Assembly: GCA_020844525.1 (NCBI GenBank)
Contig: JAJGAH010000030.1
Location: 1-12,163 of the forward strand
Direction: 5' to 3'
Length of the DNA: 12,163 nucleotides
Source of the DNA: Eubacterium sp.
GTDB lineage: Bacteria; Bacillota; Clostridia; Lachnospirales; Lachnospiraceae
The notes under the pieces are model-generated. The model was given only the letters and a program-made list of their open reading frames with translations. It did not search any database and was not told the DNA's origin. A program made the translations under genes and the position numbers. Below are positions 3,045 to 11,961 of the stretch, one piece after another (position 1 is the stretch's first letter; every line of letters starts with the position of its first letter).

Positions 3045-3272
3045 CGTGTTTCTACGAGCGGTGCATTCATAAGTCTTGTCTTCAGCACGGAGGTGCCCTT
3101 TGCAAAAGCAATCGTTCCGGGACATCCCTTCATGAACTACCTCTCTATTCTGTTTGTGGTGGAGATCATCATTGCTGCCCTGATGCATATCAAAGCGACC
3201 GGAAAAACAACAGCTCTCTCTTTCAGTGAGAGCATTTCACTGGCATTTGATGCAATTGGAGGAAATGAATGA
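3045..3272 (+). pseudogene. 3' remnant of a membrane transporter gene
   Basis: The open frame after the terminator encodes about 75 residues with two hydrophobic stretches. The first is SGAFISLVFSTEVPFAKAIV and the second is NYLSILFVVEIIIAALMHI, and a polar tail ending DAIGGNE follows. The HPFMNYLSILF...EIII pattern recalls the last membrane helix of sodium:solute symporters, but I cannot fix the family. There is no start codon with a ribosome site, and the upstream boundary is a terminator, so only the 3' end of a gene remains. Confidence 0.5.
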
Positions 3273-3364
3273 TGAAAAAATCTCCGCTTCAGCGAAGCCT
3301 GCCAGGCTTACAGTATGGGAGAAGAAAAACTGGTCTGGTGGTGGGATTATTATAAAATATTGTA

Positions 3365-3379
3365 TTGACACAATGTCAG
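3365..3379. promoter_or_regulatory. TetR operator box 1
   Basis: TTGACACAATGTCAG contains the palindrome TGACA-n3-TGTCA. It is superimposed on the -35 box of the tetR promoter. Confidence 0.65.
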
Positions 3380-3393
3380 AATCGATGTATAGT
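3365..3393 (+). promoter_or_regulatory. tetR promoter, near-consensus
   Basis: A perfect -35 box TTGACA (3365-3370) is separated by 17 bases from TATAGT (3388-3393). Two TetR-type operators cover the -35 box and the transcription start region, so repression by occlusion is expected. Confidence 0.85.
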
Positions 3394-3400
3394 AACCATG

Positions 3401-3415
3401 CTGACATGGTGTCAG
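3401..3415. promoter_or_regulatory. TetR operator box 2
   Basis: CTGACATGGTGTCAG is a 15-bp palindrome (CTGACA-n3-TGTCAG) at about +1 to +15 of the tetR transcript. It is identical in all 15 bases to box 3 at 4093-4107. Confidence 0.75.
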
Positions 3416-3439
3416 AGATAAACAGATGGAGATACAGAA

Positions 3440-4060
3440 ATGCCAAGAGGATCAGAGGAACAGACACAGAACAGAAAAGAAGAGATCATTGATGCCTGTG
3501 ATAAGCTGTATCAGACGCTGAATTACAACGAGATCACACTCAAAGAAATCAGCAAAGAGACAACTTTTTCCAGGCCTTCGATCTACAACTACTTCGAAAC
3601 CAAGGAGGAGATTTTCCTTGGACTTCTGAACAGAGAGTATAGAGCCTGGGCTTCGGATCTCAGGAAGGTTGGAGATCAGGATCTGTCAGGAAGTGTGGAC
3701 GCTTTTGCGGATGCAATCGCTGAAACAGTTGAGAAGCGGCTGACTCTTCTAAAGATCCAGTCCATGAATCTCTTTGAGATTGAAGAGCACAGTCGGATGG
3801 AACGCCTTGTTGAATACAAAAAGGCCTTCCTATCAGCCATGGATGCTTTTCTGAAAGCTCTTAAGAAGAACTTTCCTGAGATGACGGAAGAAGAACGGAG
3901 CCAGTTCCGCTATGCGTTCTTCCCCTTCATGTATGGCATTTATCCTTATGTCTATCCATCAGAGAAACAGTGCCGGGCCATGGATGCGGTCGGGATCCCC
4001 TATCAGAAGACCACGGTCCGAGAGATGACCAGGCAGTTCATCTGCGGATTTCTGAAGTGA
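3440..4060 (+). CDS. TetR/AcrR-family transcriptional repressor
   Basis: This 206-residue protein has the usual TetR length. The N-terminal helix-turn-helix spans about residues 14-58, with the recognition region TTFSRPSIYNYFETKEEIF (41-59) typical of the family. The remaining helical domain should bind a small ligand that I cannot identify. The start is set by GGAG (3428-3431) 8 bases before ATG 3440. Its own promoter carries two operators and a third identical site precedes the neighbouring flavin reductase gene. The simplest reading is a local repressor of itself and of the redox operon, released by an electrophile, quinone or flavin-related compound; the inducer is a guess. Confidence 0.85.
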   Translation: MPRGSEEQTQNRKEEIIDACDKLYQTLNYNEITLKEISKETTFSRPSIYNYFETKEEIFLGLLNREYRAWASDLRKVGDQDLSGSVDAFADAIAETVEKRLTLLKIQSMNLFEIEEHSRMERLVEYKKAFLSAMDAFLKALKKNFPEMTEEERSQFRYAFFPFMYGIYPYVYPSEKQCRAMDAVGIPYQKTTVREMTRQFICGFLK

Positions 4061-4083
4061 AAAAGAGGTTCGCCTCTTTTTTT
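4060..4083 (+). terminator. UUCG-loop terminator after tetR
   Basis: AAAAAGAGG (4060-4068) and CCTCTTTTT (4073-4081) form a 9-bp stem around the stable TTCG tetraloop, with a T-run to 4083. The stem overlaps the last base of the tetR stop codon, so tetR is monocistronic. Confidence 0.9.
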
Positions 4084-4092
4084 ACCTAAGTG

Positions 4093-4107
4093 CTGACATG
4101 GTGTCAG
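4093..4107. promoter_or_regulatory. TetR operator box 3, before flavin reductase operon
   Basis: CTGACATGGTGTCAG is identical to box 2. It lies 10 bases past the tetR terminator and 86 bases before the flavin reductase start, where the promoter of the next operon must be. I cannot see a convincing -35/-10 pair beside it. Confidence 0.7.
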
Positions 4108-4192
4108 AAGCAAAAACGAATAACAACATTATTGGAACAGAAAACAGGAATAACATTTGCAGCGCAGGAACCTGCGGGAAAGGAATGAAACT

Positions 4193-4453
4193 ATGAAGAA
4201 GAACATTGGAGCACAGCTTGCACTTTATCCCTCACCGGTCATTGTGGTAGGAGCCATGGTAGAAGGAAAGCCGAACTGGACACTGGTTGCCCATGCAGGA
4301 ACCGTTGCCCATTCCCATCTGATGCTGTCGATGGTAAGTTCACACCGCACCAACAAGGGAATCAAAGAGACAGGAAAGGTTTCTGTCAATGTGGTTGATG
4401 AGAGCTGGCTGAAGGATGCAGACCGTATGGGCGTCATCAGCGGAAACAAGGAG
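4193..4453 (+). pseudogene. Flavin reductase, 5' half (split by IS110 element)
   Basis: Codons 1-87 of a flavin reductase-like FMN-binding protein (MKKNIGAQLALYPSPVIVVG, later KETGKVSVNVVDESW and GVISGNK). It is cut off after GAG by the insertion sequence, which adds Leu-Pro-Val and a TGA at 4463-4465. Joining this half to the frame starting at 6370, with the GGAG core counted once, gives an uninterrupted protein of 180 residues, a normal length for the family. The start is ATG 4193, with AAGGA (4180-4184) 8 bases upstream; the upstream in-frame TTG 4157 has no ribosome site. Such proteins use NAD(P)H-derived electrons on bound FMN. As it stands the gene should be inactive. Confidence 0.85.
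4450..4453. repeat. GGAG core, left copy
   Basis: The GGAG at the left junction matches the GGAG at 6369-6372. The uninterrupted target read AACAAGGAGGATAAG, so a single core was duplicated at, or recombined within, this short shared sequence. Confidence 0.75.
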
Positions 4454-4460
4454 CTTCCTG

Positions 4461-4466
4461 TATGAT
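4461..4466 (+). promoter_or_regulatory. Inward -10 half of IS junction promoter (left end)
   Basis: TATGAT lies 7 bases inside the left end, pointing towards the transposase. It has no good -35 box in the integrated state. On a circle it would be 17 bases from TTGACT at the right end. Confidence 0.7.
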
Positions 4467-4508
4467 GTAAATATAAGGAATTCCGAGAAAGGTGGTTGAG
4501 AAACAGAA

Positions 4509-4578
4509 ATACCTCAGATTAAAATAAGAATTACTGACTTTGCCGGTTAGTAAAAAATTCTTATCTAAAGTGAGGTAT
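4509..4578 (+). promoter_or_regulatory. RBS-sequestering hairpin before transposase
   Basis: ATACCTCA (4509-4516) pairs with TGAGGTAT (4571-4578), ATAAGAATT (4524-4532) with AATTCTTAT (4556-4564), and ACTGAC (4533-4538) with GTTAGT (4546-4551, one G-U pair). The result is a long, nearly continuous stem. The transposase Shine-Dalgarno TGAGG (4571-4575, 8 bases before ATG 4584) is in the 3' arm and would be buried in any transcript that starts upstream. It may also be part of a non-coding RNA of the element. Confidence 0.65.
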
Positions 4579-4583
4579 CTACA

Positions 4584-5876
4584 ATGAAGAATAACACACA
4601 AAACGAGAAAATCAAAGCGATTACTGATGATACTATGGTCGTTGGGATTGACATTGGAAGTGAGAAGCATTTTGCAAGAGCATTTGATAACCGCGGAATC
4701 GAGCTCTCGAAAGAGCCTTTCGAGTTTTCCAATAGTGAAGAGGGCTTCGTTAAGCTGAATGCATGGATGGAAGATCTCAAATCGAAGCATGGTATGAAGG
4801 TTGCACTGCCTGGAATGGAACCGACTGGCCACTACTGGTTCAATCTTGGCGCATTCCTGCAGAACAACGGGATGAGGCCAGTGCATGTGAATCCGTATCA
4901 TGTCAAGCAGTCTAAGGAACTTGATGATAATAATCCCAATAAGAATGACCGTAAGGATCCGAAAGTAATCGCCGGACTTGTAAACGCAGGGAGATACTCA
5001 TACCCATACATCCCCACTGATGTTTATGCGGAGGTAAGAGCGCTTTCCAATCAGCGGCTGCAGGCGCAGGAATCTCTGGTAAGAACCAGAAACAAGCTTG
5101 CAAGATGGTTCAGCATCTATTTTCCGGAATACAAAGACGTTTATGTAAATCCGGATGCTGTAAGCGGGCTGATGATTCTCAGGAAAGCTCCTCTTCCAGC
5201 AGATATCGTAAAGCTGGGCGTGGAAGGTATCAATCAGATCTGGAGAGAGGCAAAACTTAGAGGCGCCGGAAGAAAGAGGGCGCAAACCCTGGTAGAGGCT
5301 GCTATGCACAGCATAGGAAGCAAACAGGCGCCAGAAGCTGCCCGGATCGAGATCATGAACCTGTTGGATGACATCGATATGTATTCCAATCGGGTTGCAG
5401 AATTTGTAGCCCTTTTGGACAGAAAAATGGAAGAAATCCCATATGTTGATAAACTGCTGGCTATCAATGGAATCGGGGTGCGAACAGTACAGACCTTTAT
5501 TGCTGAGGTGGGAGACATTAGGCGTTTTGATAACCCGAAGCAGGTTCAGAAGCTTGCAGGCCTGGCTATTGTGGAAGACAGTTCCGGCAAACACAACGGT
5601 GAGAGCCGTATCAGTTACCGGGGCCGTAAGAGGCTGCGCTATGTATTGTACGAGGCAGCGTTGTCTGTAATAGCAAGGAACCCAGAATTCAAGCAGATTT
5701 ACAACTACTATATAACACGGGACAAGAATCCCTTAAAGAAGATGCAGGCGCTGATTGCAGTGTCCTGTAAGCTGATACGCGTGTTTTATGCGATCCTGGT
5801 AAAAGGTGTGGATTATGATGGCACAAAGATGCTGGGAGACATTCGAAGACAACCGGAGGAGGCAAAAGCAGCGTAA
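4584..5876 (+). CDS. IS110-family transposase (DEDD + serine recombinase)
   Basis: This 430-residue protein is full length for the family. The N-terminal RuvC-like DEDD domain shows D23 (VVGIDIGSEKHF), E79 (GMEPTGHYW), D122 and D125 (KNDRKDPK). A central helical region follows (about 170-290). The C-terminal Tnp domain contains a helix-hairpin-helix-like stretch (LLAINGIGVRTVQTFIAEVG), then AGLAIVEDSSGKHNGE with the candidate catalytic serine S334 and RGRKRLRYVLYEAA. IS110 enzymes recombine donor and target DNA under guidance of an element-encoded RNA. The start at 4584 is set by TGAGG at 4571-4575, which is trapped in a hairpin. All catalytic residues are present and no frameshift is visible, so the copy may be active. 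Confidence 0.95.
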   Translation: MKNNTQNEKIKAITDDTMVVGIDIGSEKHFARAFDNRGIELSKEPFEFSNSEEGFVKLNAWMEDLKSKHGMKVALPGMEPTGHYWFNLGAFLQNNGMRPVHVNPYHVKQSKELDDNNPNKNDRKDPKVIAGLVNAGRYSYPYIPTDVYAEVRALSNQRLQAQESLVRTRNKLARWFSIYFPEYKDVYVNPDAVSGLMILRKAPLPADIVKLGVEGINQIWREAKLRGAGRKRAQTLVEAAMHSIGSKQAPEAARIEIMNLLDDIDMYSNRVAEFVALLDRKMEEIPYVDKLLAINGIGVRTVQTFIAEVGDIRRFDNPKQVQKLAGLAIVEDSSGKHNGESRISYRGRKRLRYVLYEAALSVIARNPEFKQIYNYYITRDKNPLKKMQALIAVSCKLIRVFYAILVKGVDYDGTKMLGDIRRQPEEAKAA

Positions 5877-6368
5877 AGGCGGATCATCTCCATCACGGTT
5901 GCCCTGAACAGGTAACTGACAGCCTGCTGAGGGCAGCTGTGATGGAAAACAGAGCAACTGTAACCAGTAAACAAAAGAGAGTTCCAAAACGGCAGGAAAA
6001 CGTCCACCATCCGGTGCTGCTGTAGAGGAAAGAGTCAGTAATAACAAAGAATGAGCCAGTAGTCGGCAGGAATATTTTCCAGAGGGCAGGACCCTGTAAA
6101 GGAGCTAAGCTGACACCCTGGTTGTGGGCAGGCGGAACGAAGGAAGTTGGGGCAGGATCCTGGTAGACACGGGAGGTGCGCTGCCATAGCGGAACAGGGC
6201 TACACACAAGGCCATGCAGAGCGTAAATGACGACGTTCTGCTTCGTGTACCCAAAATACGCTATTTTCGTACCAGATACATCGAAATGCTCACCCTTATG
6301 GCTCATTCTTTTTCTGAGATAGCTGTAAAAACCCTTGATTTTAAAGAAAAAAACACTTGACTAAATAG
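5877..6368 (+). ncRNA. Structured IS right end, candidate guide (bridge/seek) RNA
   Basis: There are about 490 bases without a coding signal between the transposase stop and the right end. Several hairpins are visible: ACAG-CTGC...GCAG-CTGT (5919-5940), the palindrome CAGGATCCTG (6153-6162), TAGC...GCTA (6187-6202) presenting GGAACAGG in its loop, and GTAC-AAAATA...TATTTT-GTAC (6247-6272). IS1111-type elements encode their guide RNA downstream of the transposase, and this is the only stretch long enough. Exact RNA ends cannot be set from sequence alone. Sequence resembling the insertion site occurs at 6132-6146 and 6188-6194. Confidence 0.4.
6357..6362 (+). promoter_or_regulatory. Outward -35 half of IS junction promoter (right end)
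   Basis: TTGACT lies 6 bases inside the GGAG core of the right end and points out of the element. There is no -10 box at a workable distance in the present flank, so it should be silent when integrated here. Joined to the left end, it forms TTGACT-n17-TATGAT. Confidence 0.7.
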
Positions 6369-6654
6369 GGAGGATAAGTCCAACGCGTTTGCCTACACCA
6401 TCGGTGAGAACGGGGCTCCCCTGATCGATGAAGCGAAGCTTTCCATCGAGTGTGAGATGGATGGCAACGTAGAAATAGAAGGCTTCGACAACTTCATCGT
6501 AAAGATCTTGGCCACCTATGCGGATGAGAGCATTCTGAATGAAAAGGGCAAGATCAACTATCATGTATTCAAGCCGGTGCTCTTTGAGTTCCCGACCTAT
6601 GAGTATTTTGTTACCGGAAACAAGGTCGGCGACTGCGCAAAGATGAACAAGTAA
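6369..6654 (+). pseudogene. Flavin reductase, 3' half (split by IS110 element)
   Basis: The frame resumes at GAG 6370 as EDKSNAFAYTIGENGAPLID and runs to TAA 6652-6654 through IECEMDGNVEIEG and HVFKPVLFEFPTYEYFVTG. This is the C-terminal half of the flavin reductase fold, including the strand that follows the FMN-binding core. An internal ATG at 6457 has no ribosome site, so independent translation is unlikely. The first base of the GGAG core is shared with the element. A second, intact flavin reductase at 7649 may compensate for the loss. Confidence 0.85.
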
Positions 6655-6705
6655 AGACCGGAATTGTCAATATTCAACATATAGACCAGAGCAAAGGAGA
6701 AAAAG

Positions 6706-7638
6706 ATGAAATTACCTAAGATCGCACTTGGAGCATGGGCATGGGGAAATGATGGAACTTTTGGACAGAACCTCACAGCGGAGACACTTAAGCCGATTTT
6801 TGAAACCGCAATGGAGAATGGCCTGAATCTCTGGGATACCGCTTATGCGTATGGCATGGGAACATCAGAGAAGACCCTTGGAACCTTCCTAAAGGGTCTG
6901 CCGAGGGATTCCTACATCATTTCCGACAAGCTGACACCCCAGTGCATGGACTATTCCTCGAAAACACCTGTAAAGGACATGCTGGATACCGAGTACGGTT
7001 TCCTGGGAATTGACCGTATGGATATCTACTGGGTCCACAATCCCGTTGATGCCCCGAAGTGGATCACCGAGGTGGCAGAATATTTTGAAGGAAGAGAGGA
7101 TGCTCCCATGATCGGTGTATCCAACCATAATCTGGCACAGATCAAAGAGGCAGATGCGATTCTCAGAGCCCATGGACTGAAACTTGGCGCCGTGCAGAAC
7201 CATTACAGCCTGTTAAATCGCTCTTCTGAGGATTCCGGTATTCTCGATTACTGCAGAGAGAATGGAATTGTATTCTTTGCCTATATGGTCCTGGAACAGG
7301 GAGCCCTGTCCGGAAAGTACGACACAAAGCACCCGATGCCTGCAGATTCCGGCCGGGGACAGACCTATAACCCGGTCCTGGACAAGCTGGAAATCATGAA
7401 CGAAAAGCTTTCCGAAATAGCAGAGAAGCATGGTGTGGCACCTGCCCAGATCCCGGTCGCATGGTCCATTGCCAAGGGGGCCCTTCCAATCATCGGCGTC
7501 ACAAAGACCCGCCATGTGGAGGATGCGGTAAAGGCAGCAAATGTAGAGCTTAGTGCAGATGAGATCCGTGCACTGGAAGAGACAGCAGACAGCCTCGGTC
7601 TTGATGTGATCCGCGGCTGGGAAAAGAAGATGGAGTAA
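6706..7638 (+). CDS. Aldo/keto reductase (first copy)
   Basis: This 310-residue (alpha/beta)8-barrel NADPH-dependent oxidoreductase has a complete catalytic tetrad: D44 (LWDTAYAYG), Y49, K75 (ISDKL) and H111 (WVHNP). The NADP(H)-binding C-terminal signature is ALPIIGVTKTRHVEDAVKA. It would reduce aldehydes or ketones to alcohols in the cytoplasm; the substrate is unknown. The ribosome site AAAGGAGA (6693-6700) is strong. It follows the interrupted flavin reductase by 51 bases with no visible promoter, so it was probably co-transcribed with it and may now depend on read-through from the insertion sequence. The next gene starts 10 bases after its stop. Confidence 0.93.
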   Translation: MKLPKIALGAWAWGNDGTFGQNLTAETLKPIFETAMENGLNLWDTAYAYGMGTSEKTLGTFLKGLPRDSYIISDKLTPQCMDYSSKTPVKDMLDTEYGFLGIDRMDIYWVHNPVDAPKWITEVAEYFEGREDAPMIGVSNHNLAQIKEADAILRAHGLKLGAVQNHYSLLNRSSEDSGILDYCRENGIVFFAYMVLEQGALSGKYDTKHPMPADSGRGQTYNPVLDKLEIMNEKLSEIAEKHGVAPAQIPVAWSIAKGALPIIGVTKTRHVEDAVKAANVELSADEIRALEETADSLGLDVIRGWEKKME

Positions 7639-7648
7639 GAGCATATTT

Positions 7649-8260
7649 ATGAGTAAAAAAGATATCAAGCTGAGGGCAATTGTGGCACCTGTTCCGACAG
7701 TTGTTGTAAGTGCCTATGATGAAAATGAAAAACCGGATGCATGCACGCTGGGGCTGTACTATACCTGCAGCCACAGACCTCCCTGCGTAACGATCGCGAT
7801 CAATTCAACGGACAGAAGAAAGACTTTAAAGAGTATCCTGAAGAGCGGCGCCTTCGTGGTTCATTATCCTGATTCTGACCAGATCAGGGAGACTGACTAT
7901 CTTGGGGTCGAGACCGGATACAATGCCGATAAGCTTGCCAAGATCGGTTATACTGTAACGAAAGCTGAGAAGGTAAACGCGCCGGTGATTAATGAAATGC
8001 CGCTGGCGATAGAATGCAAGGTCATTCACACTTCTGATATCGGCAGTCACACACAGGTGACAGGCCAGATCATGAATGTTCAGGCAGAAGAATCTATGCT
8101 GGATGCGAACGGGCGGATCGATATAGAAAAGCTGGATCCTATGGTCTATGATGAGGAATCCCACAGCTACCGGCATGTCGGCAGAATATCTTCAAGAGCT
8201 TTTGTGCCGGGAGCGGAAATGAAGAAGACTTTTGATAAAGAAGATGGAGTAAAAAAATGA
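7649..8260 (+). CDS. Flavin reductase family protein (intact)
   Basis: This 203-residue flavin reductase-like FMN-binding protein has the N-terminal strand VAPVPTVVVSAYDEN, the segment TLGLYYTCSHRPPCVTIAI, the RKTLKSILKSGAFVVHYP helix-strand and the C-terminal HVGRISSRAFVPG. It is cytoplasmic and probably passes electrons from NAD(P)H to flavin or acts on a flavin-linked substrate. It is related in fold to the interrupted 180-residue protein but not a close duplicate. The ribosome site is weak (TAAGAG), and the gene is probably coupled to the aldo/keto reductase 10 bases upstream. It overlaps the flavodoxin gene by 4 bases (ATGA). Confidence 0.88.
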   Translation: MSKKDIKLRAIVAPVPTVVVSAYDENEKPDACTLGLYYTCSHRPPCVTIAINSTDRRKTLKSILKSGAFVVHYPDSDQIRETDYLGVETGYNADKLAKIGYTVTKAEKVNAPVINEMPLAIECKVIHTSDIGSHTQVTGQIMNVQAEESMLDANGRIDIEKLDPMVYDEESHSYRHVGRISSRAFVPGAEMKKTFDKEDGVKK

Positions 8261-8679
8261 AGACACTGGTAGCTTATTTCTCCGCAAGCGGAGTTACAAG
8301 AAGGAAAGGACAGGCATTTGCCAAGTCCCTGAACGCTGACATTTATGAAATTATCCCTAAGGATCTTTATACAGATGCAGATCTGAACTGGATGGATAAA
8401 AAGTCTCGCAGTACCCTTGAAATGCAAGATCCGGCATGCAGGCCTCAGCTTAAGGAAAAGACCACAGACCTTTCAGCATATGATACGGTTTACATCGGAT
8501 TCCCGATCTGGTGGGGAGTTGCTCCGAGAGTGATCAATACTTTTATTGAAAACAATGATCTGAGCGGAAAGAGAATTGTGATTTTTGCCACCTCAGGAGG
8601 AAGCGGGGTAGGTCCGGCTGTAAAAGATCTCCAGAAGACTTATCCGAATCTGCAGATTGAAACAGGCCGGCTTTTATAA
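8257..8679 (+). CDS. Flavodoxin, C-terminally truncated
   Basis: 140 residues of a flavodoxin. The FMN phosphate loop is YFSASGVTRRKG (residues 7-18), the isoalloxazine-contacting loop is GFPIWWGVAPRVI, and a second loop is FATSGGSGVG. Flavodoxins of this subgroup usually continue for roughly 15-20 more residues after the GRLL segment, forming the last helix. Here TAA 8677-8679 cuts it short, exactly where a MerR-like remnant begins. Loss of the last helix may destabilise the protein, so this could be a recent pseudogene. Start and regulation come from the ATGA overlap with the flavin reductase. Confidence 0.82.
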   Translation: MKTLVAYFSASGVTRRKGQAFAKSLNADIYEIIPKDLYTDADLNWMDKKSRSTLEMQDPACRPQLKEKTTDLSAYDTVYIGFPIWWGVAPRVINTFIENNDLSGKRIVIFATSGGSGVGPAVKDLQKTYPNLQIETGRLL

Positions 8680-8690
8680 TCACTGCATTG

Positions 8691-8804
8691 CCATTGGAAG
8701 AAAAGCGAAACGAAACCTTAGACGAAATTCACTTCTATGAGCGGCAGCTTCAACGTCTGGATTATCTGCGCCATGAAATTCAGAAAAATAAGAAAGGGGG
8801 ATAA
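8691..8804 (+). pseudogene. 3' remnant of a MerR-family regulator
   Basis: The frame reads LEEKRNETLDEIHFYERQLQ, then RLDYLRHEIQKN, and ends at TAA 8802-8804. This is the typical dimerisation coiled coil at the C-terminus of MerR regulators, with the heptad-like pattern and the LDYL motif. The N-terminal DNA-binding domain is absent. The frame runs back into the end of the flavodoxin gene with no start codon. The tail carries the ribosome site of the aldo/keto reductase (AAAGGGGG, 8793-8800), so the original arrangement was probably merR directly upstream of that gene. Confidence 0.68.
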
Positions 8805-8806
8805 AC

Positions 8807-9658
8807 ATGGATACGATTCAACTAAACAACGGTGTGACGATGCCTTTGATGGGTTTGGGCGTGTTTCAGGTGACAGATCAGCAGGTCTGCAAAGAAAGTG
8901 TTCTCTCTGCACTGCAAACTGGCTATCGCCTGATCGACACGGCGGCCTGTTACGGAAATGAAAAAGCAGTGGGCGAAGCCATTCGGGAAAGCGGGCTTGA
9001 CCGAAAGGAACTGTTTCTGACCTCAAAGGTCTGGATACAGGATGCGGGCTATGAGAAAACCATGCGTTCTTTTGAAAAGACGCTGGAAAATCTCGGGACG
9101 GATTACCTCGACCTGTACCTGATCCACATGCCCTACGGCGACTATCACGGCTCATGGCGGGCGATGGAGGAACTGCACCGGGCCGGAAAAATTCGTGCGA
9201 TCGGTGTCTGCAACTTCCTCCCGGATCGCCTGACCGACCTGATTTTAAGCCATGAGATCATTCCTGCGGTGAACCAGATCGAGCTGCATCCGTTCTGCCA
9301 GCAGCGGGCGCTGCGGCAGGTCATGGCTCAGTACCACATCGTTGCTATGGCGTGGGCTCCCTTTGCCGAGGGGCAAAACGGGATATTTACCCATCCGGTG
9401 TTGACCGAGATTGGCAAACAGTATGGTAAAACTCCCGCACAGGTGGTTTTGCGTTGGCTGCGTCAGGAGGGCGTGGTGGCGATTCCCAAGTCCGTTCATG
9501 CGGAGCGCATCACGCAGAATTTTGATGTGGACGATTTTACGCTGTCCTCTGCCGATATGGTACAGATCAGCGGACTGGACATGGGAAAGCCGCTGATCCT
9601 GAACATCCCCAGTCTGAATGAGGTTTACCGCCTCCACAACATTCGATTTGAACAATAA
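8807..9658 (+). CDS. Aldo/keto reductase, 2,5-diketogluconate reductase type
   Basis: This 283-residue aldo/keto reductase has the AKR5-like signatures GVTMPLMGLGVFQ near the N-terminus, GYRLIDTAACYGNE, and IPKSVHAERITQNFDVDDF for NADPH binding. The tetrad is complete: D44, Y49, K74 (TSKVW) and H107 (LIHMP). It should reduce small aldehydes such as methylglyoxal-type or keto-sugar substrates. ATG 8807 lies 6 bases after AAAGGGGG. The gene is visibly richer in G and C than those left of 8680 and follows a MerR remnant, so it belongs to a block with a different history. MerR-controlled reductases usually answer electrophile stress, which fits the neighbourhood. Confidence 0.93.
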   Translation: MDTIQLNNGVTMPLMGLGVFQVTDQQVCKESVLSALQTGYRLIDTAACYGNEKAVGEAIRESGLDRKELFLTSKVWIQDAGYEKTMRSFEKTLENLGTDYLDLYLIHMPYGDYHGSWRAMEELHRAGKIRAIGVCNFLPDRLTDLILSHEIIPAVNQIELHPFCQQRALRQVMAQYHIVAMAWAPFAEGQNGIFTHPVLTEIGKQYGKTPAQVVLRWLRQEGVVAIPKSVHAERITQNFDVDDFTLSSADMVQISGLDMGKPLILNIPSLNEVYRLHNIRFEQ

Positions 9659-9678
9659 CAAAAGATGAGGATTACAAC

Positions 9679-9810
9679 ATGAACCATCTTTTATTGGGAT
9701 GCGGGGCGCTCCTCCGGGCCTTTTCCTATGGGCCATGTGTAGTCCGGTTTGGAGCAGCTTGCGGCCCTCACCGTCTGCCTTCCGTACATTGGCTTCCCAC
9801 GCACCCTTAA
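9679..9810 (+). pseudogene. Small out-of-frame ORF, possible broken gene start
   Basis: ATG 9679 has a reasonable GAGG site (9667-9670) and opens 43 codons (MNHLLLGCGALLRAFSYGPC...) before TAA 9808-9810. From about 9743 its frame overlaps the CMD remnant in another frame, so most of it is unlikely to be real. It may be the 5' end of a gene broken by the same event. I recognise no family. Confidence 0.25.
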
Positions 9811-9865
9811 TGCGCTGGGCTGCGTGAACGAAGTTCTGTCGGAGAAGCGTAAAGGAGTAATTCAA
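9743..9865 (+). pseudogene. 3' remnant of a carboxymuconolactone decarboxylase gene
   Basis: The frame LEQLAALTVCLPYIGFPRTL followed by NALGCVNEVLSEKRK matches the last helices of CMD/AhpD-like proteins, which have the pattern E.l..l..y.GfPra.nAl....evl. A TAG at 9740-9742 closes it upstream and the CxxC-containing part is absent. It has lost its own stop and runs in frame into the aldo/keto reductase start at 9866. The tail supplies that gene's ribosome site (AAAGGAG, 9851-9857). Confidence 0.62.
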
Positions 9866-10867
9866 ATGGAATACACGAAATTAGGGCAAACCGATATTGA
9901 AATTTCCAAAGTCTGCGTAGGCTGCATGAGTTTCGGCAAGGCAGGCACCATGCACGACTGGACGCTGGACGAAGCGGCCACCGGGGAAGTGGTAAAACAC
10001 GCCCTCGACCTCGGCATCAACTTTTTTGATACAGCAAACGGCTATTCCGCCGGAACCAGCGAGGAATACCTGGGGCGGGCACTGAAAAAGAATATTGCCA
10101 GGGACAAGGTGGTCATAGCATCCAAAGTGTATTTTAACCCCGGCAGATTGTCCCGAAATGCAATTTTTCATGAAATAGACGGAAGCCTTCAAAGGCTTGA
10201 GACAGATTATCTGGATCTTTATATTATACATCGGTTCGACTACGATACGCCGATAGAAGAGACGATGGAAGCCTTAAATGACCTGGTAAAACAGGGGAAG
10301 GTGCGGGCTATCGGCGCATCCGCCATGTACGCATATCAGTTTTACAATATGCAGCAGACCGCAAAAGACCATGGGTGGGAGCAGTTCCAGACAATGGAGA
10401 ACCATTACAACCTTCTCTATCGCGAGGATGAGCGGGAAATGATCCCGATCTGCCGCCAGTGGAAGGTATCCCTGATGCCTTACAGTCCGCTTGCGGCCGG
10501 ACATCTCACACGGAATACCTGGGAAGGGAACACCCTGCGGGCAAAGACCGACCGTGTGGCCATGGGAAAATATGACCGAATGGAACAGGCAGACATTGCT
10601 ATAGTCCACCGTGTTCATGATCTTGCGGAGAAGTATCATGTAAAAATGCAGCAGGTTGCTCTCGCATGGCTCTGGGCAAGAGGTGTGACAGCCCCGATTG
10701 TCGGAGCAACAAAAGCAGCTTATCTGGAAGACGCGGCTGGTGCACTTGATGTGAAACTCACGGATGAAGACATTGCATATCTTGAAGAGCCATATATTCC
10801 CCATCCGATTGTGGGTGCAATAGACCATAACCCGCCACAGGGCGTCATGCTGCTGGACAAGAAATGA
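9866..10867 (+). CDS. Aldo/keto reductase, YajO/YhdN-like
   Basis: This 333-residue aldo/keto reductase starts MEYTKLGQTDIEISKVCVGC, typical of the Tas/YajO-like group. The tetrad is D55 (FFDTANGYS), Y60, K87 (ASKVY) and H122 (IIHRF). The C-terminal cofactor segment is TAPIVGATKAAYLEDAA. I choose ATG 9866 because AAAGGAG sits 8 bases upstream; the longer frame to 9749 only adds the CMD remnant. Its likely role is NADPH-dependent carbonyl reduction, with unknown substrate. It is the third member of its superfamily in the window and is not a close copy of the other two, so the set was assembled and not tandemly duplicated. Confidence 0.92.
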   Translation: MEYTKLGQTDIEISKVCVGCMSFGKAGTMHDWTLDEAATGEVVKHALDLGINFFDTANGYSAGTSEEYLGRALKKNIARDKVVIASKVYFNPGRLSRNAIFHEIDGSLQRLETDYLDLYIIHRFDYDTPIEETMEALNDLVKQGKVRAIGASAMYAYQFYNMQQTAKDHGWEQFQTMENHYNLLYREDEREMIPICRQWKVSLMPYSPLAAGHLTRNTWEGNTLRAKTDRVAMGKYDRMEQADIAIVHRVHDLAEKYHVKMQQVALAWLWARGVTAPIVGATKAAYLEDAAGALDVKLTDEDIAYLEEPYIPHPIVGAIDHNPPQGVMLLDKK

Positions 10868-10915
10868 GAAAAAGAGATATTATCCAGAAGAAGTATATAA
10901 ACTCGGGAGGAGCAT

Positions 10916-11242
10916 ATGAGCCTTACAGTAAATCTTTATTACCACGGGAGCAACGGCTCTGCGCGGAAATTTGCAGAGGAGATGGAGCGTTCCGGTTTGG
11001 CAGCAGCGATCAGGGCAGAAGAAGGAAACCTCAAATACAGGTACTTCATTCCCATGGATGATTCGGAGACAGTTCTTCTGATCGACAGCTGGCGTGACCA
11101 GAAAGCGCTGGATGCCCACCATGCATCGCCAATGATGAAAAAACTGGCGGAACTCCGTGAGAAGTACGATCTTCACATGGAAGTGGAGAGGTACGTTTCC
11201 ACAGACGAAGAAGTCGGCGATAAGAAGTTTATAAGGAAATGA
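10916..11242 (+). CDS. Antibiotic-biosynthesis-monooxygenase (ABM) domain protein
   Basis: This 108-residue protein has the ferredoxin-like ABM fold: LTVNLYYHGSNGSARKFAEE, then GNLKYRYFIPMDDSETVLLI, DSWRDQKALDAHHASPMM and a final strand MEVERY. Small ABM proteins include quinol monooxygenases such as YgiN, which act without metal or flavin; many others have no proven activity. The ribosome site GGGAGGAG (10903-10910) is very strong. It lies 48 bases after the aldo/keto reductase in the same operon, and its stop overlaps the start of the TTRAP-like gene (ATGA at 11239-11242). Confidence 0.85.
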   Translation: MSLTVNLYYHGSNGSARKFAEEMERSGLAAAIRAEEGNLKYRYFIPMDDSETVLLIDSWRDQKALDAHHASPMMKKLAELREKYDLHMEVERYVSTDEEVGDKKFIRK

Positions 11243-11391
11243 AGAATTTCACGAATGACGAGATGAATCTCATGTGCATTTATTGTGCCGGAAGTAACCG
11301 CACCGGACTGATGCAGAAACTTACCGAAATGAAGCATTATCTGGAGAAGGATGAAACAGAGCTGCTGGCATTGACGGGCGCGGCGGTATGA
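11239..11391 (+). CDS. TTRAP-like transposon-transfer-assisting protein, short
   Basis: 50 residues beginning MKNFTNDEMNLMCIYCAGSN and continuing RTGLMQKLTEMKHYL, then LEKDETELLAL. This matches from memory the N-terminal two thirds of TTRAP proteins found on conjugative transposons of gut Firmicutes, which normally run to about 70-80 residues and end in an acidic tail. Here TGA (11389-11391) stops the frame at ALTGAAV, where the family usually has ALTDSAL and another helix. It is probably truncated or frameshifted. It is coupled by a 4-base overlap to the ABM gene, which places a mobile-element gene inside a metabolic operon. I cannot confirm the family without a search. Confidence 0.6.
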   Translation: MKNFTNDEMNLMCIYCAGSNRTGLMQKLTEMKHYLEKDETELLALTGAAV

Positions 11392-11501
11392 GCGCTGTGT
11401 TTGACGGACTGCCGATGGACAGACCGGTTACACCGCTGAAGCTTGAACATGTGCAGTCGTTTGAGAGCGGTGCCGTTTGGCTTCGGTACAAAACACATTA
11501 A
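11388..11501 (+). CDS. Small ORF overlapping TTRAP stop, unassigned
   Basis: ATG 11388 overlaps the TGA of the TTRAP-like gene and opens 37 codons (MSAVFDGLPMDRPVTPLKLE, then HVQSFESGAVWLRYKTH) to TAA 11499-11501. The opening MSAVFDGLPMD faintly resembles the late MSDA.FDALDL segment of TTRAP proteins, so it could be the frameshifted rest of that gene. It has no ribosome site of its own other than coupling. I do not recognise the remainder. Confidence 0.35.
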   Translation: MSAVFDGLPMDRPVTPLKLEHVQSFESGAVWLRYKTH

Positions 11502-11523
11502 AAATTTGTTTGGAGGTAATGTC

Positions 11524-11961
11524 ATGAAATTTGAAAACAAGGATGCTTTTGAGCAGCACAACATGTTTGGTATGGGCGCAGCAAACACAGCATATGCCAA
11601 ATATTTTATCGGGAATTCGTTCTTGAATCCGCTCACAGATCCGAAAAAAGGACTCTTCGCAGCCAATGTAACCTTTGAACCGGGATGCCGGAATAACTGG
11701 CACATCCATCATGCAAAAAGCGGAGGCGGTCAATTGCTTATCTGCACTGCCGGTGAAGGCTGGTATCAGGAAGAAGGAAAAGACGCTGTCAGCTTGCAGG
11801 AAGGAAGCGTAGTGATGATTCCTGCAAATGTCAAACACTGGCACGGAGCAAAAAAAGACAGCTGGTTTTCTCACATTGCCGTTGAAGTACCCGGAGAGGA
11901 ATGCAGCAGCGAGTGGTGTGAACCGGTAAGTGATGAGCAATATCGCGAACTGGAAGGATAA
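11524..11961 (+). CDS. Cupin-domain protein, CMD-associated
   Basis: This 145-residue single-domain cupin has motif 1 with H60, H62 and H63 in NNWHIHHAKSGGGQLLI, with Q70 where a glutamate is usual, and the glycine of GEGWYQEEG. Motif 2 is IPANVKHWHGAK with H105 and H107. These should bind a divalent metal in the barrel. Cupins of this type are commonly found beside carboxymuconolactone decarboxylase-like genes, as here. Their substrates are mostly unknown. ATG 11524 is set by GGAGGT (11512-11517); an upstream GTG in frame at 11443 lacks a ribosome site. The gene probably shares a transcript with the CMD gene 67 bases downstream. Confidence 0.88.
   Translation: MKFENKDAFEQHNMFGMGAANTAYAKYFIGNSFLNPLTDPKKGLFAANVTFEPGCRNNWHIHHAKSGGGQLLICTAGEGWYQEEGKDAVSLQEGSVVMIPANVKHWHGAKKDSWFSHIAVEVPGEECSSEWCEPVSDEQYRELEG

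Follow-up and report, generated by a model that had tools for sequence, protein, structure and literature searches.

The window analyzed here, 12,163 nucleotides of the Eubacterium sp. contig JAJGAH010000030.1 (GenBank assembly GCA_020844525.1; Lachnospiraceae), carries a complete insertion sequence of the IS110 family (Table 1). The two ends of this element probably assemble a promoter when it is excised as a circle, and a guide RNA encoded in the right end probably leads the circle back into DNA at ribosome-binding sites. On excision the right and left ends would abut and form a sigma-A-type promoter, TTGACT-17-TATGAT, which integration would split again. A transcript of the circle would start near position 4473, cross a left-end hairpin and the transposase gene, and run into the guide RNA. 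The target loop of this RNA would pair with a Shine-Dalgarno-like site, AAGGAG^G (^ marks the insertion point or the junction of the ends), its donor guides would, by our proposal, pair with the joined ends, and the circle would thereby reinsert at ribosome-binding sites.

The element boundaries, the boxes and their spacing, the separation of the boxes on integration, the folded RNA, the covariation of the left guide and the start-codon bias were read from sequence. Formation of the circle, firing of the promoter, production and use of the RNA, and the donor guides as assigned would complete the scheme. Junction promoters of this kind are already described for the IS110/IS1111 family, and the one proposed here would carry a rule known from IS110 over to a set of elements from gut bacteria. 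The guide RNA and its Shine-Dalgarno targeting, which were absent from the original prediction made on this DNA, are the more informative content, and the relatives yield a guide RNA with readable target guides.

A conserved, probable promoter across the joined ends

Joining the ends gives the order TTGACT, AAATAGGGAG (10 bases), CTTCCTG (7 bases), TATGAT, and the boxes therefore stand 10 + 7 = 17 bases apart. The coordinates, letters and spacing of the boxes were exact on re-reading. Relatives were taken as the best 80 of at least 588 in genome contigs, with a further 19 loci from viral contigs; they are carried by gut bacteria, mostly labeled Lachnospiraceae. Both ends were present in 40 loci, one of which (L039) is cut by a contig end and was dropped. 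The resulting 39 complete elements (38 relatives and this one) include near-identical copies and represent 35 distinct sequences. Membership required both ends to align with this element, which kept out any element with different ends.

Both boxes were found at a spacing of 17 in 39/39 complete elements, usually as TTGACW-17-TATAAT. The 16-18 base spacing that end joining gives to IS110/IS1111 circles with a junction promoter is thus present in all of them. Since box positions were set by distance from the ends, the hexamers were free to fail and the spacing was not. The -35 position reads TTGACT in 28 elements and TTGACA in 11; the -10 position reads TATAAT in 35 and TATGAT (this copy), TAGAAT, TAAGAT and TATACT once each. 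Among the 35 distinct elements TTGAC and the left-end bases T8, A9 and T13 are invariant and TATAAT is nearly so; variation is seen at the last -35 base (T or A) and at the two spacer bases that follow it. The original prediction had offered conserved TTGACT/TATGAT ends in other copies as a check, and close relatives pass it (39/39). It had also called the promoter strong, which suits the family consensus better than this copy, where each box matches 5/6 and the -10 is TATGAT.

For 45 further loci the ends were sought with patterns requiring TTGA near the right end. Seventeen further relatives were named and 16 scored (the right end of L065 could not be placed; the flanks of L084 are those of L015). 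Recognizable boxes at the same spacing occur in 13 of the 16, a biased sample because the search pattern asks for TTGA. Among these 13 the first hexamer is TTGATT (4/6) in 8, and the -10 scores 4/6 in 3. The other three scored relatives are the C92 element, with a poor -10, and L067 and L068, with neither box. The box count leaves out the rest of L065-L083 and L087-L102.

Integration separates the two halves. At this insertion no left-flank hexamer does better than 2/6 as a -35 and no right-flank hexamer better than 3/6 as a -10, and a promoter scan of 4200-6700 found no site spanning either boundary. The earlier statement that neither box has a partner when integrated here is borne out. Across the 33 elements with both flanks long enough, a left-flank -35 of at least 5/6 was found in 0/33 and a right-flank -10 of 5/6 in 1/33.

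The claim that such promoters are known for IS110-family circles also agrees with the literature. An IS110 circle reconstitutes a promoter across its joined ends according to PMC11208160, and PMC11187229 describes junction promoters for the IS1111 and IS110 families, shown active in a few cases. As in the circles of ISEc11, ISEc21 and IS621, abutting ends would create a promoter that integration splits. Unlike in those systems, the promoter is known here from sequence alone and no circle was seen.

Several observations concern the boxes and their surroundings. An AT-rich inverted repeat lies just before the -35 box (6330-6356) and is CCTTGATTTTCAAGG-like in many relatives; it could end antisense transcription entering the element. 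A possible second copy in the own genome was rejected: the only candidate is a diverged element on contig C92 (G000, locus L003) whose transposase is 47% identical. Its right end reads TTGACACAATAGGGAG, its left-end -10 is poor, and at the place of the internal promoter-like site described below its left end reads TTGACA. The relative L064 has 3371 bp between its placed ends and a much longer span from transposase to right end, suggesting an extra insertion.

A candidate guide RNA aimed at Shine-Dalgarno sites

A candidate bridge RNA or seekRNA follows the transposase gene. Its fold was derived from 37 aligned distinct sequences and comprises 65 consensus pairs, with 97.5% of cells paired. Two-sided changes support 10 pairs against 5.2 in shuffles that leave relatedness in place (2/500 as high), and 46 cells against 12.7 (0/500). 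The single sequence is also more stable than most of its shuffles (z -2.63; 3/200 as stable). Inside the fold lies a putative target-binding loop with two guides, of which the left spells a Shine-Dalgarno sequence.

The left guide covaries with the DNA into which each element is inserted. The comparison used 35 guide/flank pairs, namely the 39 complete elements minus three with short flanks and L011, in which the stretch is absent. The guide agrees with its own left flank at position -5 in 34 pairs, at -6 in 27 and at -7 in 18, while the permuted means are 30.4, 18.2 and 11.0. When right-end columns were scanned against flank positions, the top two pairings were flank position -6 with column 6099 (z 3.80) and -5 with column 6100 (z 3.39), both in the left guide. 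Third came column 6078 as the complement of right-flank position +2 (34/50 against a permuted mean of 23.0; z 3.36), which places the right target guide. Proposed donor guides follow the loop. Across 12 displayed elements a GAGGAG right end goes with AGGAG in the RNA (6 elements), and the remaining 6 have GGGAG there.

The insertion sites agree with such a target. The flank set comprised 102 distinct right flanks (50 from genome contigs, 5 from viral contigs and 47 from the own and further genomes; 6 too-short flanks were dropped). In 75 of these an ATG, GTG or TTG stands 3-14 nt downstream and opens a reading frame of at least 40 codons. The start codon lies at 6-10 nt in 60 of the 75 and is ATG in 64; the first set of 50 flanks had given 37. 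Under this rule, positions drawn at random from either strand of these loci gave 588/4080 and other AGGAG^G sites 69/225. Harmful insertions may have been lost, which could account for the higher share than at other AGGAG^G sites. The right end finishes with GGGAG or GAGGAG and the next flank base is G in 47/50. The start codon thus keeps a Shine-Dalgarno-like sequence before it, with the distance unchanged.

A comparable target may be recognized in IS900 of Mycobacterium avium subsp. paratuberculosis, whose target motif is given as CATGNNNNNNTCTCCTT (PMC8141618). On the other strand CATGNNNNNNTCTCCTT reads as a Shine-Dalgarno sequence plus ATG, a reading made here that sets transposase orientation aside. 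Older work on IS900 reportedly supports it. Shine-Dalgarno targeting would therefore not be unprecedented. IS900-like insertion between Shine-Dalgarno sequence and start codon is seen across the relatives (75/102) but not at the insertion in the window. Among the matches listed in searches of open-licence papers we recognized none on ribosome-site targeting by the IS110 family, and we do not claim that Shine-Dalgarno targeting by a bridge RNA is unpublished. A guide aimed at Shine-Dalgarno sequences would give a programmable recombinase a target before many genes, and it raises the question of whether the downstream gene is still translated after insertion.

Transposase expression and rival explanations

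Besides the junction boxes, the left end carries an internal promoter-like site. An equivalent is present in 38/38 aligned left ends and reads TTGA[GTA]A in 36/38, the pattern having been written to admit the two departing first hexamers. Its spacer is 16 bases in 28 left ends, 17 in 2 and 18 in 8. The left end also folds into a hairpin over the ribosome-binding site of the transposase gene (fold z -3.93; 0/200 shuffles equally stable), and across 38 sequences 97.8% of cells are paired. Four pairs show two-sided changes, all in inner helices; the outer stem AUACCUCA/UGAGGUAU hardly varies and therefore yields no covariation. A start from the internal site would fall 3' of the 5' arm of the hairpin and so would leave the ribosome site free.

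These features suggest a rather different account, which we consider possible but doubtful, in which most transposase expression comes from within the integrated element or from host read-through, leaving the junction promoter a secondary role. An internal start would leave the ribosome site free, while longer transcripts from the host or the junction would fold and hide it. The conserved site (10/12), the conserved hairpin and co-oriented insertion before a start codon in 75/102 all fit. So does the precedent of ISPpu9 (IS110/IS492 family), for which PMC8450116 maps a tnp start and promoter to the left end and describes a structured tnp 5' untranslated region that controls translation. The element resembles this Pseudomonas putida insertion sequence in its left-end promoter-like site and 5' untranslated structure, here seen in sequence; ISPpu9 has traits of its own, being also regulated by two small RNAs and inserted in repetitive extragenic palindromic (REP) sequences. 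However, the hexamers of the internal site overlap the hairpin and their conservation may reflect RNA folding, the spacing varies, and the scan of 4200-6700 returned 4 promoter-like sites where 3.7 would be expected from shuffled sequence. Host read-through into the element is nonetheless likely given the co-oriented insertions, and the circle is probably not the only source of transposase expression. The original prediction had bound transcription to the excised circle: the conserved junction promoter, split by integration, stands in its favor, but an exclusive link is unsupported in view of the left-end site and the insertions before start codons.

It is improbable that the conserved ends are merely contact sites of the recombinase or the guide RNA and resemble promoter boxes incidentally. 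Recombination needs conserved ends anyway, and GGGAG^CTTCCT matches the proposed donor guides. TTGAC and TATAAT, however, lie outside these guides; they are consensus-like, optimally spaced at 17 and placed beside variable bases. Moreover, the Pseudobutyrivibrio-type elements L067 and L068, which lack both boxes, still retain GGGAG and TTCCTG. Coincidence in one copy deserves next to no credence. Taken by itself, one pair of hexamers at 5/6 carries little weight, but the 39/39 complete elements contradict chance, as do random end pairs from this window, only 25/20,000 of which gave two boxes of at least 5/6 at a spacing of 16-18.

The circle-assembled promoter and guide RNA remain the probable explanation, and the following points weigh against it. 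A search of 397 same-family genomes that allowed up to 2 mismatches revealed no joined junction (its single hit is described below), although intermediates that are rare can be absent from assemblies, and the exact pattern was not found in viral contigs. With no joined junction seen, the circle and its transcript are posited from knowledge of the family. The ends of L067 and L068, located by comparing copies, are without the boxes, and the own-genome C92 element combines TTGACA with a -10 of just 3/6. Related copies without boxes, named beforehand as evidence that would speak against the junction promoter, thus exist in L067 and L068 and weakly in the C92 element, though not among the 39 complete elements. 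The insertion in the window, inside a gene, is among the 27/102 without start codon and reading frame. In the guide RNA further pair types are not raised (42 against 43.6 in shuffles), and the shuffles preserve relatedness. L006 departs from its left guide at -5. The signal of the right target guide is modest and weaker than that of the left. Non-guide columns follow closely in the scan (6081 with -5, z 3.33; 6245 with -4, z 3.27), so that the scan by itself fails to isolate the guides without the loop and the letter match. The donor guides were assigned mainly by letter matching.

The promoter, hairpin and guide may also form a joint low-damage lifestyle, an idea we put forward tentatively and hold to be somewhat less likely than not to be right as a whole. 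The guide would home sense-oriented to ribosome-binding sites, right-end ATAGGGAG would rebuild the host ribosome site, the hairpin would block read-through translation, and the promoter would exist only in the circle. If true, the host translation signal would be kept and the transposase would be quiet in place and active once excised.

A single 2-mismatch match to the junction was recorded in G029:C157, and its letters look like an integrated left end preceded by host DNA. At this locus (L171, G029:C157:45-73) the flank supplies TTGATT 17 bases before the TATAAT of the apparent left end, and a hybrid host/element promoter is possible there.

Boundaries, classification and neighboring observations

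Table 1. Features of the element and of the interrupted gene, in window coordinates.
Feature	Position	Strand	Evidence
Complete IS110-family element, 1919 bp	4454..6372	+	Ends common to relatives; uninterrupted orthologue in G007
Transposase, 430 aa, DEDD_Tnp_IS110 and Transposase_20	4584..5876	+	Domain matches; profile match to IS621 and ISCro4
5' part of interrupted flavin-reductase-like gene	4157..4453	+	PF01613 22.8 bits, below cut-off 27; orthologue in G007
3' part of interrupted flavin-reductase-like gene	6373..6654	+	Aligned with G007 orthologue
GGAG of target, left copy, last part of Shine-Dalgarno-like AAGGAG	4450..4453	+	Letters read; left-flank composition
Right donor half CTTCCTG, the 7 outermost bases of the left end	4454..4460	+	Near-invariant in 35 distinct elements
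TATGAT, -10 half of putative junction promoter	4461..4466	+	TATAAT in 35/39 complete elements
Internal promoter-like site TTGAGA-18-TAAAAT	4496..4525	+	10/12; equivalent in 38 aligned left ends
Predicted hairpin AUACCUCA...UGAGGUAU pairing transposase ribosome-binding site (GTGAGG 4570-4575)	4509..4578	+	
Bridge-RNA/seekRNA candidate, closed by GAAUGAGCC 6049-6057 / GGCUCAUUC 6300-6308	6046..6309	+	
Target-binding loop with both target guides inside; stem GUAGUCGGC 6059-6067 / GCUGACAC 6109-6116	6059..6116	+	
Right target guide UUUUCC, complementary to top strand (G^GAAAA), loop 5' side	6075..6080	+	
Left target guide UAAAGGAG, letters of top-strand left target, pairs with bottom strand, loop 3' side	6097..6104	+	
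Proposed right donor guide AAGGAAG, complement of left-end CTTCCT	6140..6146	+	Strongly conserved; partly paired in predicted fold
Proposed left donor guide CACGGGAG (GGGAG of right end)	6168..6175	+	Letter match
TTGACT, -35 half of putative junction promoter	6357..6362	+	TTGAC[TA] in 39/39 complete elements
AAATAGGGAG, terminal 10 bases of right end; gives Shine-Dalgarno-like GGGAG^G to downstream sequence	6363..6372	+	

The boundaries, originally drawn from the broken gene, proved right. Among 83 loci (three of them from the own genome) blastn alignments of relatives stop exactly at the left boundary in 47 and at the right boundary in 54. In the same-family genome G007 an uninterrupted orthologue aligns on each side as far as the insertion point itself and has no additional bases there. 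GGAG is present at both edges (4450-4453 and 6369-6372) and nothing else is common to both; joining the two gene flanks with a single GGAG gives an open reading frame. Little or no target duplication and a lack of long terminal inverted repeats are traits of the IS110 family, and both are found here, there being no significant inverted repeat between the two 30-base ends. The element is present in a single copy in its own genome assembly (2.53 Mb, 69% complete).

The transposase matches PF01548 (100.9 bits), PF02371 (89.5 bits) and NF033542 (233.2 bits against a cut-off of 140), and its profile matches IS621 (8wt6; E 8.2e-21) and ISCro4. Its frame is open, and by these matches the element is an IS110-family member of the RNA-guided DEDD type. 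The left end extends 130 nt before the transposase gene and the right end 496 nt after it. Left ends of relatives measure 127-131 nt in the rows counted to ATG; other rows were counted to an upstream TTG or GTG.

Within the family the element shares more with the IS1111 group. PMC11187229 describes IS1111 elements with the RNA downstream, the top-strand match first and subterminal repeats usually of 11-13 bp, and the IS110 group with the RNA upstream of the transposase and the reverse match order. According to PMC11208160, the IS110 group has its RNA mostly in the left end, and the IS621 RNA places the bottom-strand guide first. As in the seekRNA elements of the IS1111 group (ISEc11, ISPa11, ISKpn4), the noncoding RNA here would lie 3' of the transposase, and the top-strand match precedes the bottom-strand match, the left guide being strong and the right modest. 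Subterminal inverted repeats of 11-13 bp were, in contrast to that group, not found: the 30-base ends of 35 elements give a mean local score of 6.5 against 5.4 in shuffles (95th percentile 7), and the element in the window scores 4.0. The candidate RNA resembles the IS621 bridge RNA in its related recombinase and in internal loops with two guide halves, but relative to this IS110-group element both the RNA end and the guide order are reversed. The guide RNA is not in the left end as in the IS110 group; guide covariation was found in the right end, and only right-end columns were scanned. Because two IS1111 features occur without long subterminal repeats, the element is placed in the IS110 family broadly and not in IS1111 in the strict sense. 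It appears to work like an IS1111-type member of the broad family. An RNA position and guide order of IS1111 type without the IS1111-defining repeats bear on how the two groups are separated.

Within the element a stem-loop (5886-5956) directly follows the transposase stop, outside the guide RNA alignment. Relatives seem to keep an inverted repeat at this position with differing letters. An Rfam match of this hairpin to mir-4477 fell below the gathering score and was rejected as chance. A minus-strand open reading frame at 5893-6306 (137 aa) was rejected as a gene: it has no Pfam match and is longest in this copy, the median longest antisense frame of the distinct elements being 82 aa.

At 3440-11961 the window encodes a TetR regulator and, after it, a series of redox genes: three aldo/keto reductases, a second flavin reductase, a flavodoxin and a cupin protein. 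One member of this series is broken by the insertion. In L042 two partial element matches (1733-2597 and 3127-4211) lie close together on one contig and are perhaps the remnant of a tandem insertion and deletion.

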